NCBI GenBank assembly: GCA_946622415.1
Contig: CAMOPX010000004.1
Coordinates: forward strand, 1-64,000
Length of the DNA: 64,000 bases
From: an uncultured bacterium
GTDB taxonomy: Bacteria; Cyanobacteriota; Vampirovibrionia; Gastranaerophilales; Gastranaerophilaceae
Direction: 5' to 3'
The translations under genes were made by a program, and so were the position numbers. How positions within the stretch are numbered: the first letter of the stretch is position 1; every line of letters begins with the position of its first letter. Positions 13,838 through 45,433 of the stretch are shown in pieces. The notes under the pieces were generated by a model. That model was not told where the DNA came from. It made no database searches and saw only the letters and a program-made list of their open reading frames with translations.

Positions 13838-15373
13838 ATGGAAATCAGACAAGAATTATATTCATTTACTCCTAATGAACACAGTAAAATCGAATCTAAA
13901 TCTGTAAATCAAGAAGAAAGCATATTTGAAAAACAAAAAGCTAATCAAGAAGAACCAAAGATTTTTGATATCTTTAGAGAAGATGGCGAAAGTTTTCCTT
14001 CTGATTGGGAAGATTCAAAAATAGATTATAATGATATACCGGATGGTGTTTCCCGTTATAAATACAAAGGCGGAGATTATACAATACATAAACACCACGG
14101 AAGACATAAAAGAGAATATGTAGGACCAAAAGGTGTTGATCCCAGAGATTTTATAGATAATTTCCCTAACGTTGTTCCTGAAGATATATTCCCGTATAAA
14201 GATGATACTACGGATATTGATACTGATACAGATATAAATACAGACACAGACACAGACGCCGATATAAATAAAGCTGCAGATACAAATACAAACAAAAGAA
14301 CAGTAAACGGTATAAACGGTAAAATAGATGAACAAGTGTTACAAGGAAACAGCGGTGATTGCTGGCTTTTGGTTGCCTTAAATTCACTAAATTCCACAGA
14401 TGCAGGTAAAAAAGTTATAGAAGATGCTATTACAATCAATGATGACAATTCGGTAACAATTTCTTTTAAAGGTGTAGGTGCAAGCTATACTTTAACCGCA
14501 AATGAAATAGCAAAATATGACACTGATAACAATTTATCTGATTCATATTCAAATGGTGATAACGATGTTTTAGCTTTTGAATTAGCAACAGAAAAACTCT
14601 TAAAAGATATTAAATCAGGAAAAGTAAAAGTTAATTCATCTAACCCAAATATCCAAAATGCAGCAAGCAGTATTGAAAACGGTGGTTTTCCTTCTCAAAT
14701 GATTTATTATTTAACAGGAATAGAATCACAAGAATATTACAACACTGATAGCAAAGGAAATATAAAAGATTTAGAAGCTAATGAAGTGTACAATATTTTA
14801 CAAAATGCTTATAAATCAGGAAATACATCTTTAACCTTCGGTATTTATAATGGAGAACACAGAGGAACTTTAACCAACGGAACAGATTATTCTCTTGATG
14901 TAGGTAATGGCGGACACGCCCTTTCTATCACAAATATTACAGCTGATACCGTTACATTTATAAATCCTTGGGATAACAATAAAGAATACACAATGACTTA
15001 TTCCGAATTTGCAAATTTAGGTATAGGTTATATGTGTTCAAGCAACTTAAACAATAAAAATTATGCAAATAAAGTTGTTGATATGACAGATAAAACAACC
15101 GCTAAAAACAATAATTATAATTATTCAAACAATAATAAAAAATATTCTCAAAAATATAATAATACCCCAACTTCAAAAGCTTCAGCAAATAAAAAACCGG
15201 CAAATTCATATGAATACGGTTATGATTCAGCATTTGAAACAACAAATAATAAAAGCAAAAAGAAAAGCTTTTTTATGACATTCTTGGAAAGAATTAAAAA
15301 TTCATCCAACAGCTTAAGAGAATTTTATCAAGATTTATATAAAAACGATGATACAAATAAAAAAGCTTCTTAA
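13838..15373 (+). CDS. Calpain-like cysteine protease (family C2-type)
   Basis: The 511-residue product has a calpain-type catalytic core. LQGNSGDCWLLVAL places the nucleophile Cys at about residue 175, GNGGHALSI the His at about 360 and INPWDN the Asn at about 376, in the order and spacing of the calpain papain-like fold. Calpains are Cys proteases, calcium dependent in eukaryotes; bacterial relatives are sparse. A low-complexity Asp/Thr stretch (DTDTDINTDTDTDAD region, residues 123-150) precedes the core and could bind cations or act as a linker. The C-terminal 120 residues are Asn/Lys/Tyr-rich and disordered in appearance. No classical signal peptide is visible. Function could be intracellular processing or an unconventionally exported effector. 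Confidence 0.8.
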   Translation: MEIRQELYSFTPNEHSKIESKSVNQEESIFEKQKANQEEPKIFDIFREDGESFPSDWEDSKIDYNDIPDGVSRYKYKGGDYTIHKHHGRHKREYVGPKGVDPRDFIDNFPNVVPEDIFPYKDDTTDIDTDTDINTDTDTDADINKAADTNTNKRTVNGINGKIDEQVLQGNSGDCWLLVALNSLNSTDAGKKVIEDAITINDDNSVTISFKGVGASYTLTANEIAKYDTDNNLSDSYSNGDNDVLAFELATEKLLKDIKSGKVKVNSSNPNIQNAASSIENGGFPSQMIYYLTGIESQEYYNTDSKGNIKDLEANEVYNILQNAYKSGNTSLTFGIYNGEHRGTLTNGTDYSLDVGNGGHALSITNITADTVTFINPWDNNKEYTMTYSEFANLGIGYMCSSNLNNKNYANKVVDMTDKTTAKNNNYNYSNNNKKYSQKYNNTPTSKASANKKPANSYEYGYDSAFETTNNKSKKKSFFMTFLERIKNSSNSLREFYQDLYKNDDTNKKAS

Positions 15374-16754: not shown

Positions 16755-16806
16755 TAAAAAACGTGGTAAAATAAAATTAGTACATTGAAAATTTAGCCAA
16801 AGATAA

Positions 16807-17069
16807 ACAAATTTTGTAAGAAATTTTTTCGCTCGAGTCCAATTTCGAGCTGTCCGTCGGATTTCCACAATCCGCCGCCACGCTCTCATTTTCTAAAGAC
16901 TCGCTCAAAATTTCAAACAAAAAACAAATTTTGTAAGAAATTTTTTCGCTCGAGTCCAATTTCGAGCTGTCCGTCGGATTTCCACAATCCGCCGCCACGC
17001 TCTCATTTTCTAAAGACTCGCTCAAAATTTCAAACAAAAAACAAATTTTGTAAGAAATTTTTTCGCTCG
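16807..17069. repeat. 117-bp perfect tandem repeat abutting the tmRNA gene
   Basis: Two identical 117-bp units (16807-16923 and 16924-17040) are followed by the first 29 bases of a third (17041-17069), which runs to one base before the mature tmRNA 5' end. Inside each unit are nested inverted repeats: GAAATTTT with AAAATTTC, GAGTC with GACTC, CTCGA with TCGAG, and CGGATT with AATCCG. The unit is GC-richer than its surroundings. 117 is a multiple of three, so a repetitive frame is open on the minus strand, but this looks incidental. The tmRNA leader or promoter must lie in or before this array. Confidence 0.9.
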
Positions 17070-17070
17070 T

Positions 17071-17471
17071 GGGGATGTTTTTGGTTTCGACGGGGTGAAG
17101 TTTATCGTCATAGTTGCATTCCAAGCCGAATAACTTGTTAAACTTTTCAAAAAAATAAACGCTAATAACGTTGTAAAAGCTGATTTTGCACCTCGTGCAA
17201 TCGCTGCGTAGTCTACACAGACGAGAGCGACAGCCACTCTATAGGCCCAACTTGCCGGTTTGTAGGGTAAATTATGCAAGTACAGCACAAATTTTCATTT
17301 AGCGGTTTGTGTCAAGTTTTAGTTAGATGAAGTTGATGTTCTTTAAAAACACCTTTGGATTTTAATTGGTTGTGGTAATTTTCCTGTTATTATCCGAGTA
17401 TAAAAGTACCTATGAATGTAGAGATTATTTCGGTATCATTTCGGACGTGGGTTCGACTCCCACCATCTCCA
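17071..17471 (+). ncRNA. ssrA: Transfer-messenger RNA
   Basis: tmRNA rescues stalled ribosomes with SmpB and tags the nascent protein for proteolysis. The 5' end GGGGATG pairs with CATCTCC at 17464-17470, including the G:U third pair that gives alanyl identity. GGTTTCGACGGGG is the conserved D-arm-like start, and GTGGGTTCGACTCCCAC near the 3' end is the T arm. A73 is at 17471 and CCA is not encoded. The resume codon is GCT at 17161. The tag frame encodes ANNVVKADFAPRAIAA and stops at TAG 17209-17211. The ANN(V/I)V start resembles cyanobacterial tags. This is the standard one-piece form of about 400 nt. Confidence 0.95.
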
Positions 17472-17628
17472 ATCTTTTGAAGCTTGAAGCGTACTCTGTC
17501 GGAGTAGCTGAAAGCGAAAAAGCCAACGGATGTGAGAGCGTGATGGCGTTGCGATGAGCAACGGCAGACAGCTCGACACTGGACGAGAGCGACGTAGAAA
17601 TCTTTGATTTCACAGGAGCAATCTTTTA
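17471..17628. repeat. Structured repeat copy R1 directly after tmRNA
   Basis: About 150 bp bounded by direct repeats AATCTTTT (17471-17478 and 17620-17628 region). It is GC-richer than the genome. It contains the hairpin CGTTGC-GATGA-GCAACG (17547-17563), then AGCGACGT (17588-17595), a short hairpin GAAATC-TTT-GATTTC and the tail ACAGGAGCAA (17612-17621). Copies R2 (18707-18868) and R3 (21871-21969) share the order and tail with changed stems. No reading frame here looks real. Confidence 0.7.
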
Positions 17629-18115: not shown

Positions 18116-18565
18116 TGTCATGCTGAACTTGTTTCAGCATCTTATAATCTGCGCATGTTACAATAAATCTATGAACAAAACTTATGCAGTATATATTTTG
18201 ACAAATTACAATGAAACAACATTTTATATTGGTGTAACTGGAGATTTACAAAAAAGAATTTGGGAACATAAAAATAAAGTTGTTGAAGGTTTTACTAAAA
18301 AATATAATGTTGATAGATTAGTTTATTACGAATTAACAGAAGATGTTGAATCTGCATTGAACAGAGAAAAACAATTAAAGCGTTGGCATAGACAATGGAA
18401 AATAAATTTGATTAAAGAAATGAACCCCGAGTTTAAAGATTTATCCGAACAATGGTAAGATGTAATAATAACAATAATTTTGTCATTCTGAATTTATTTC
18501 AGAATCTTAAAATTTTTGTGTAAATGCTTTTGTTGACAAGACCCTGAAACAAGTTCAGGGTGACA
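18116..18565. mobile_element. Candidate GIY-YIG-associated element bounded by inverted palindromes
   Basis: The left end TGTCATGCTGAACTTG...TTCAGCATCT (18116-18142) and the right end AGACCCTGAAACAAG...AGGGTGACA (18539-18565) are inverted copies of one palindromic repeat, and both outer flanks carry GAAA/TTTC. A third copy in the left orientation sits at 18481-18507 just after the gene, and a degenerate fourth, TGTCAGTTCAGTATGACA, at 18591-18608. Each copy is an 8-bp perfect stem with a 5-nt loop. Between the ends is a GIY-YIG nuclease gene. The same inverted pair without a gene occurs at 45371-45433. Confidence 0.55.
18171..18458 (+). CDS. GIY-YIG domain endonuclease (COG2827/UPF0213-like)
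   Basis: The 95-residue single-domain protein begins MNKTYAVYILTNYNETTFYIGVT, with YIL and YIG forming the GIY-YIG core motif. A conserved Arg follows in LQKRIWEHK, KNKVVEGFTKKYNVDRLVYYE comes next, and the metal-binding Glu is in NREKQLKRW. ATG 18171 is preferred over the in-frame ATG 18120 because the upstream one lies inside the palindromic repeat. These nucleases cut DNA with a single divalent metal; small free-standing members have poorly known roles. Palindromic repeats flank the gene closely on both sides, the left one ending 29 bases before the start, which suggests a functional partnership. Confidence 0.88.
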   Translation: MNKTYAVYILTNYNETTFYIGVTGDLQKRIWEHKNKVVEGFTKKYNVDRLVYYELTEDVESALNREKQLKRWHRQWKINLIKEMNPEFKDLSEQW

Positions 18566-18706
18566 GAAAATTACGTTTATACTATTTTTTTGTCAGTTCA
18601 GTATGACAAACAAAAATATTTTCTAACAGAGGAAATAAAAATTTTATCTAATAAAGAGTCAATAAAATTTTGATATAAAAAGTTCAAGTTTGGCGACGTT
18701 ATCTCC

Positions 18707-18868
18707 AATCTTTTATCAAATGAGCCTAGCCTGACTTGGCTTGGCGAATGCAGATAAAAACAAAGGTGCGTTGATGCATGCAGACGACAGACCGATGAGG
18801 TCTGGCGGACAAGACGACACCGGACGAGAGCGACGTAGAAATCTTTAATTTCACAGGAGCAATCTTTT
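18707..18868. repeat. Structured repeat copy R2
   Basis: Bounded by AATCTTTT at 18707-18714 and 18861-18868. It contains a first stem CCTAGCC with GGCTTGG, then CAGACC-GATGA-GGTCTG (18788-18804), then a block identical to R1 apart from two bases: GACACCGGACGAGAGCGACGT, the A/T hairpin and ACAGGAGCAA (18853-18862). The sequence just before it, ATCTCC, repeats the tmRNA 3' end. Other than this, 18572-19100 shows only AT-rich sequence without genes. Confidence 0.7.
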
Positions 18869-19100
18869 GAAGCTTGAAGCACTTTATTTATTAACAAATG
18901 TAAAACAAAAAGTTTTTATAAATTTTTTGAACGTTTTAACCTGATTTTTAATCAAAATTTAAAAAATTTTTCGTAATTTTATCCAAAAAATCAAAAATTA
19001 AACACAAAACAACAAAAAAAGGCTAAATTTTTAAAAACTTTAGGAAACTTAATAAAATCTGAAAATTGACCCTGTAAAAAGCCCGATACATAATTAAATT

Positions 19101-45370: not shown

Positions 45371-45433
45371 TGTCATGCTGAACCGGTTTTGGCATCTCAT
45401 TAAATATAGACCCTGAAACAAGTTCAGGGTGAC
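45371..45433. repeat. Gene-free pair of the GIY-YIG-associated palindromes
   Basis: TGTCATGCTGAACCGG...TTGGCATCT (45371-45397) is followed after ten bases by AGACCCTGAAACAAG...AGGGTGAC (45408-45433) in the opposite orientation. These correspond to the left and right ends of the element at 18116-18565, with only ten bases between them instead of a nuclease gene. Such two-copy inverted units are what REPINs look like. Confidence 0.7.

Follow-up and report, generated by a model that had tools for sequence, protein, structure and literature searches.

The window, as we call the whole stretch of 64,000 nucleotides analysed here, contains a small GIY-YIG nuclease gene enclosed by inverted palindromes. 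We consider it likely, judging from comparisons of sequence, that this element is an autonomous copy of a CGTC-type REP family and that the GIY-YIG gene is the missing partner of these repeats, a REP mobiliser unrelated to RAYTs. With somewhat less assurance, we propose that the CGTC REP superfamily has, throughout the bacteria, a dedicated mobiliser in a family of stand-alone GIY-YIG nucleases, and so forms a class of mobile element that uses GIY-YIG chemistry alone. Under this proposal, a short stretch behind the catalytic glutamate (WHR, WNR, W[KR]R, G[SN]R or GKKR) varies with the type of palindrome and may be the part that reads it.

Structure of the element

An earlier note on this DNA had described a GIY-YIG gene enclosed by inverted copies of one palindrome with an 8-bp stem and a 5-nt loop. 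Our analysis confirms this arrangement at 18117–18142 and 18539–18564, with the ends slightly corrected. The features of the element and of a gene-free pair elsewhere in the window are as follows.

18117..18564, + strand: whole element, REP - GIY-YIG gene - REP - REP, 448 bp
18117..18142, + strand: left terminal palindrome GTCATGCTGAACTTGTTTCAGCATCT, 8-bp stem, 5-nt loop (dG -6.7, z -3.73)
18171..18458, + strand: GIY-YIG nuclease gene, 95 aa (ATG 18171, stop 18458; Pfam PF01541, E 2.5e-15)
18482..18507, + strand: internal palindrome GTCATTCTGAATTTATTTCAGAATCT (dG -5.4, z -4.01)
18539..18564, - strand: right terminal palindrome, inverse of the left, GTCACCCTGAACTTGTTTCAGGGTCT on the - strand (dG -7.1, z -3.71)
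about 18592..18607, - strand: degenerate half palindrome (6 mismatches to the pattern)
45372..45397, + strand: gene-free inverted pair, left palindrome, weakened stem (z -0.74)
45408..45433, - strand: gene-free inverted pair, right palindrome, intact

Folded as single-stranded DNA, the intact window palindromes show an unpaired GTC, the 8-bp stem, the 5-nt loop and an unpaired CT, and TGTC stands at both termini of the element. Two further copies had been placed nearby by the earlier note; one is the intact internal palindrome, and the other proved to be only the degenerate half. Likewise, the inverted pair that was said to occur alone at 45371–45433 is indeed free of a gene and has an intact right palindrome, but its left palindrome is weakened, with 49 of 200 shuffles folding equally well.

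The sole Pfam domain found in the window protein is PF01541; a second domain is absent in Pfam, and this search gave no HUH tyrosine transposase. The tyrosines of the GIY and YIG motifs, the arginine, the glutamate and the asparagine are invariant across alignments of 29 and 46 rows, and the invariant residues present in the window protein include Y8, Y19, R29, H33, E66 and N85; the classic catalytic set of GIY-YIG enzymes is among the invariant residues. The nearest solved structures by sequence include the UPF0213-type proteins BH0048 (1zg2, E 1.3e-4) and EF2693 (1ywl, E 8e-3), which have the domain in common with the window protein and are otherwise only weakly similar to it; UvrC (1yd6) matches at E 4e-3.

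The surroundings of the element hold several repeats. A tmRNA gene (tag ANNVVKADFAPRAIAA) lies at 17071–17471, about 650 bp upstream of the element, and is preceded by a 117-bp unit in two tandem copies (16805–17038) plus a further 31-bp start. The element is bracketed on both sides by a 76-bp direct repeat, 87% identical between its copies (17552–17627 and 18793–18868), and also by a 21-bp repeat (17470–17490 and 18860–18880), so that a larger mobile or recombined unit may adjoin the tmRNA gene. Farther upstream, the window encodes a 511-aa protein (13838–15373) whose calpain-like match stays below threshold (PF00648, 19.5 bits; cut-off 23.8).

Palindromes across the genome

Searching the whole genome for the palindrome, as the earlier note had proposed, gave 49 matches to the pattern GTCANNCTGAANNNGTTTCAGNN with at most 3 mismatches, against 10 for the reversed pattern. 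A tighter pattern with at most 1 mismatch found 26 copies against none. Read from the pattern matches, 11 gene-free inverted pairs are present, with tags pointing outwards and 41–63 bp between starts.

The note's observation that stems differ between copies yet stay paired also held genome-wide, in 29 copies with 13 distinct rows (29 of 30 fetched loci; L033, a chance-like match with 2 mismatches, was omitted). In these copies 99.0% of stem cells are paired, the covariation score of 0.311 was reached in 0 of 500 shuffles, and the stem changes are compensatory; a simple count of pairs altered on both sides gave 2, which does not exceed the shuffles. The first stem pair is A-T in all 13 distinct rows, and the second is T-A in 9 and C-G in 4.

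Two types of nuclease occur in the same genome, and the palindromes around each are of the matching type: type A at the window gene and type B on a second contig (C1), where the type B palindrome (GTCATTGCGAG...GCAATCT) surrounds two tandem genes. On that contig (L001, about 1313–2164) a 426-bp unit is present in two tandem copies, each comprising a type-B GIY-YIG gene and its palindromes.

Association of nuclease and palindromes in the family

The 239 genomes of the family, one per species and many of them drafts, were searched with the protein. Matches at E<=1e-6 turned up in 117 genomes, in 84 of which the best E was below 1e-13; relatives at E<1e-13 are called close below. Flanks were analysed for a subset of the listed matches, namely 30 loci and 80 added stretches, of which 60 lie around close and 20 around distant matches. 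Palindromes were detected within 250 bp by the presence of GTCA, four outer Watson-Crick pairs and TC[CT], a requirement for GTCA and TC[CT] that misses variants, and looser runs accepted TC alone. This gave 89 usable rows of 96, with 7 having short flanks and the two tandem genes of contig C1 being counted twice.

Close relatives in these 89 rows have a palindrome upstream in 64, downstream in 73 and on both sides in 57, inverted in 55. More distant GIY-YIG genes (28–38% identity, n=21), in contrast, have one upstream in none, downstream in 1 and on both sides in none. Shuffled flanks yielded 19 upstream and 17 downstream hits of 1780 and none on both sides, and windows 700–1000 bp away contained a palindrome in 3 of 71 cases. 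After de-duplication, with the looser tail and 3 further rows with short flanks set aside, 80 of 87 loci have a palindrome on at least one side (both sides 56, one side 24, none 7). The nearest pair in both-sided rows (n=56) has tags out in 34, tags in in 13 and both in the same direction in 9. Throughout, the common architecture is an unpaired GTC tag, a stem-loop and a TC tail. In one genome, two type-C GIY-YIG genes with palindrome types in common lie near each other (L125, 1001–1841).

Association beyond the family

A scan of genome contigs found at least 575 relatives, of which the best 80 were kept and 79 loci were usable. According to their record titles, these 80 span more than ten phyla, including Patescibacteria groups, Proteobacteria, Campylobacteraceae, Nitrospirae, Chloroflexi, Planctomycetes, Omnitrophus, Elusimicrobiota, Ignavibacteriaceae and Anabaena; many are metagenome-assembled genomes, and the Acinetobacter title of one (L160) may be a binning error. 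A tagged palindrome is present in 74 of the 79 loci, on both sides in 54 and inverted in 52. Distal windows gave 0 of 145, and shuffles gave 12 upstream, 13 downstream and none on both sides of 1580. Preferential flanking of the nuclease is seen in both the family and the wide set; the earlier note would have put the link down to chance if such flanking were lacking and palindromes were also frequent in genomes without the nuclease. Among the 54 both-sided rows, 41 have tags out, 4 tags in and 9 the same direction. Tails vary: CT(T) in the window rather than CCA, and commonly TCC in other phyla; the window loop is 5 nt.

Additionally, 33 records of a plasmid collection, some of them chromosome-like, contain a relative. 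Fifteen of them were examined; GTCA palindromes accompany the gene in 11, and in 9 of these they stand on both sides. In N. gonorrhoeae, the GIY-YIG gene is surrounded by dRS3-like repeats. Alignment of flanks showed inverted palindromes with variant tags in 3 of the other 4 records, revealing by this means alone CCTC-tagged pairs in Sinorhizobium and a CGTCG pair in Novosphingobium. The GIY-YIG gene of R. tumorigenes has no such palindromes by either the detector or flank alignment. A search of phages with one proteobacterial representative gave no match at E<=1e-8.

Palindrome type, copy number and a candidate recognition region

Nuclease subclade and palindrome type go together, if not strictly. 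On a tree of 90 close rows, with the label of one row (L123) assigned by hand, palindrome labels require 14 changes against 38.3 with shuffled labels (0 of 200 shuffles as low), and the 15 type-B rows form one well-supported clade together with two unlabelled rows.

Copy number follows the same division, with subclades assigned by hand from the tree and fragments counted as A. Genomes with the A subclade (n=54) hold a median of 24 type-A palindromes and the other 185 genomes a median of 2 (p 1e-14); none of the former but 59 of the latter lack them entirely. Where the B subclade is present (n=15) the type-B median is 13, and in the other 224 genomes it is 0 (p 6e-8). The match is again loose at its edges: where the only close nucleases are B, C, D or unassigned, the type-A median is 10, against 2 in genomes with none (p 3e-4), and A-only genomes have slightly more type B (p 0.03). 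Also, 20 of the 155 genomes without a close nuclease hold 20–112 type-A palindromes. Frequent palindromes in genomes lacking the nuclease were the other half of the earlier note's case for chance; this situation occurs in those 20 genomes, set against the difference in medians. The repeats can thus be kept without the gene, though in some cases the gene may be missing only from a draft assembly. Of the 20, 18 have weak GIY-YIG relatives or fragments only and 2 have none.

The residues that follow the REKxxK motif vary with palindrome type. In the family set, type A goes with WH in 47 of 51 rows, B with G[SN] in 15 of 15 and C with GK in 8 of 8. In the wide set the match is found for B in 16 of 17, D (W[KR]) in 12 of 14, E (WN) in only 22 of 35, C in 2 of 4 and A in 1 of 2, and the mutual information between type and residues over 63 rows is 1.40 bits against a shuffled maximum of 0.37, with rows lacking a palindrome type or having another motif omitted. 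A tree built without those residue columns offers only 1–3 well-supported independent contrasts per trait, and in type E the motif is mostly unchanged when the palindrome changes. The 15 further records fit the code imperfectly: Neisseria and Azospirillum agree, Rhizobium CIAT894 does not, and several new motifs appear. We regard the residue-type code as a lead, of which relatedness could also be the cause.

Signs of mobility

Among the matches listed, the closest copy of the window element (L037 in genome G028) is in another genus, with 91% protein identity. DNA homology between the two begins 1 bp outside the left tag and stops 9 bp before the end of the stop codon. Over 196 pairs of loci, which are not independent and from which 10 pairs with long shared flanks were left out, homology ends at the tag edge on the left in 37 (2.4% expected by position) and on the right in 20 (2.9% expected); it ends neither at the tag nor in the palindrome in 141 on the left and 168 on the right.

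Comparison of related strains gave filled and unfilled sites. In A. lipoferum 4B, repeats, gene and repeats lie between sufB and sufC, which are separated by 617 bp. The same interval measures 87–129 bp, without the gene, in A. ramasamyi, A. oryzae and strain B510, which are about 96% identical to A. lipoferum 4B in the matched flanks, and inspection by eye found no tagged palindrome in these three unfilled sequences. At this site repeats and gene seem to have arrived together.

At the Sphingobium fnrL site, the gene is present in 4 aligned plasmids, with a one-base gap in the gene of TYG73, and a single 27-bp palindrome occupies the site in 2 others. In TYG72, TYG65 and S. herbicidovorans the site is without a palindrome and the sequence there has diverged. 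Two other Sphingobium sites, among those listed, have an 81–82-bp pair in some strains and a single 27-bp palindrome in others, with flanks that align to within one base in the best comparisons. Either state may have come first; deletion by slippage would also leave single palindromes. One gene-free Sphingobium pair is absent in two strains along with about 60 bp of extra flank, so the unit that moved there was larger than the pair. In six Sphingobium plasmids, most clean palindrome matches are in pairs of about 80 bp. Several REP pairs on Sphingobium plasmids (L287–L306) are also embedded in a longer unit that is itself conserved and whose flanks resemble GCATGATCATGTTTGAGTGATC and GGAAAAGGAGCC on opposite sides.

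No target duplication was found at the Azospirillum and Sphingobium unfilled sites, whose joints are blurred by divergence. An unfilled site for the pair at 45372 was not readable in the listed relatives with matches to both flanking genes, these genes being on different contigs or far apart. At two loci (L110, 986–2170; L115, 983–2182) a GIY-YIG domain and a GHMP kinase are joined in one reading frame; at L115, the element stands directly upstream of the kinase gene and the in-frame fusion runs through an inverted palindrome.

Comparison with known repeats

As described by Di Nocera, De Gregorio and Rocco 2013 (PMC3733652), CGTC REPs have an unpaired CGTC or TGTC tag, a stem of 8–9 bp and a loop of 4–5 nt, and are mostly inverted dimers. 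Almost always, A-T pairs occupy the first and second stem positions, and a short unpaired tail, usually CCA, follows. These repeats occur in several phyla and include dRS3 of Neisseria and RPE-4/RPE-6 of Rickettsia conorii, with A. lipoferum, N. aromaticivorans, S. meliloti and the Neisseriae among the named carriers (PMC3733652). According to that paper, CGTC REPs "apparently lack a dedicated transposase", and a search for other transposase genes at the repeats gave just a few fortuitous associations (PMC3733652).

The window palindromes share the unpaired TGTC tag, the 8-bp stem, the 5-nt loop and the arrangement in inverted pairs. They differ in that the second stem position is often not A-T and the tail is CT(T), not CCA; types B and C have longer or interrupted stems, as compared with the published text description. 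Unlike in that account, which reports no associated transposase gene, a GIY-YIG gene here lies between the repeats, and the carriers just named (A. lipoferum, N. aromaticivorans, S. meliloti and the Neisseriae) include members with such a gene between such repeats.

REPINs and RAYTs resemble the present case in their inverted pairs of tagged palindromes, an autonomous copy that bears the enzyme and many gene-free pairs. The enzyme gene is in both cases flanked by its own REP type. The enzymes themselves differ, since RAYTs (TnpA-REP) are HUH tyrosine enzymes acting with GTAG REPs, whereas the element here has a GIY-YIG nuclease and a GTC(A) tag. The bounded, REPIN-like unit with gene-free pairs that the earlier note, which did not refer to CGTC REPs, had suggested, and its association with the nuclease, are supported by these flanks and pairs.

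In the literature, a 2018 survey of HUH endonucleases (PMC6006769) contains CGTC in its reference list alone, and a 2025 study (PMC12455944) has a GIY-YIG protein in its list of genes that Patescibacteria are predicted to have donated. No paper linking GIY-YIG to these repeats was found among the listed matches from open-licence literature, a body without preprints and most subscription journals, and none of the best 40 of 119 matches to the repeat letters is by title a bacterial-repeat paper.

Discussion

Free-standing GIY-YIG homing endonuclease genes are small selfish genes whose products cut DNA to spread. CGTC REPs could have spread by other means and a gene of this kind could home into REP pairs, with the palindrome as its target. 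We judge this unlikely, and it nevertheless has something in its favour. The fnrL site, with the gene in 4 plasmids and a single palindrome in 2, fits a homing gene that interrupts its own target, pairs and single palindromes alternate elsewhere, and REPs persist in genomes without the gene. GIY-YIG homing genes are, moreover, an established kind (Dunin-Horkawicz 2006, PMC1564403). The Azospirillum site does not fit: reading by eye showed no tagged palindrome in the three unfilled sequences, and repeats and gene seem to have arrived there together. The window gene also differs from free-standing homing genes in encoding a single domain of about 96 aa, in being bounded by palindromes and in having many gene-free relatives of its ends. 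Homing by a passenger gene would further leave the repeats without any mobiliser, and the associations with other transposase genes reported by Di Nocera et al. (PMC3733652) are few and fortuitous.

Even less probable, in our estimate, is a host-side processing enzyme that resolves or trims repeat hairpins and is kept near them via linkage or regulation. The GIY-YIG superfamily does include repair and structure-selective enzymes such as UvrC (PMC1564403) and SLX1, and single palindromes do occur at pair sites. Against this stand the patchy presence of the gene, in 117 (E<=1e-6) or 84 (E<1e-13) of 239 genomes, and copies that lie in unrelated places, are broken, or share 91% protein identity between genera without shared flanks; such patchy, scattered and broken copies form the pattern of a mobile gene, not of housekeeping. 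That the palindromes are ordinary bidirectional terminators flanking a small gene by chance accounts for hairpins near gene ends, but we give it very little weight: 57 of 89 family rows and 54 of 79 loci of the wide set have palindromes on both sides, the tag is common across phyla, the type changes with the subclade of the nuclease, and most distal windows, like most of the more distant GIY-YIG genes, are without them.

The reading that we favour, an autonomous CGTC-type element with its own nuclease, would work as follows. Two inverted palindromes, with unpaired GTC tags facing out, would bound a one-gene unit coding for the single-domain GIY-YIG nuclease, and the gene-free inverted pairs would be its non-autonomous derivatives. 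The nuclease would recognise the palindrome type that belongs to it, probably when this is extruded as a hairpin or cruciform, and would nick or cut near the tag or loop. Subsequent repair or ligation would then copy or move the unit between the palindromes to another intergenic position, and also from cell to cell. Candidate routes are cut-and-paste, copying through single strands, or a homing-like repair of double-strand breaks; the Azospirillum site favours joint arrival of repeats and gene, and at the Sphingobium sites homing-like entry into single palindromes is conceivable as well. The association of nuclease and repeats proposed by the earlier note stands as an observation, and a GIY-YIG enzyme as the dispersing or copying factor appears to be the best explanation of the patterns seen in these genomes.

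The question of the CGTC REP enzyme becomes directly testable now that it has a named candidate, cognate pairs of nuclease and palindrome, sites that are filled or unfilled in nature, and a region proposed to set specificity. If our reading is true, unrelated nucleases have mobilised REP-type repeats on at least two occasions, and an element can make do with one gene, for a protein of about 95 aa and a single domain.
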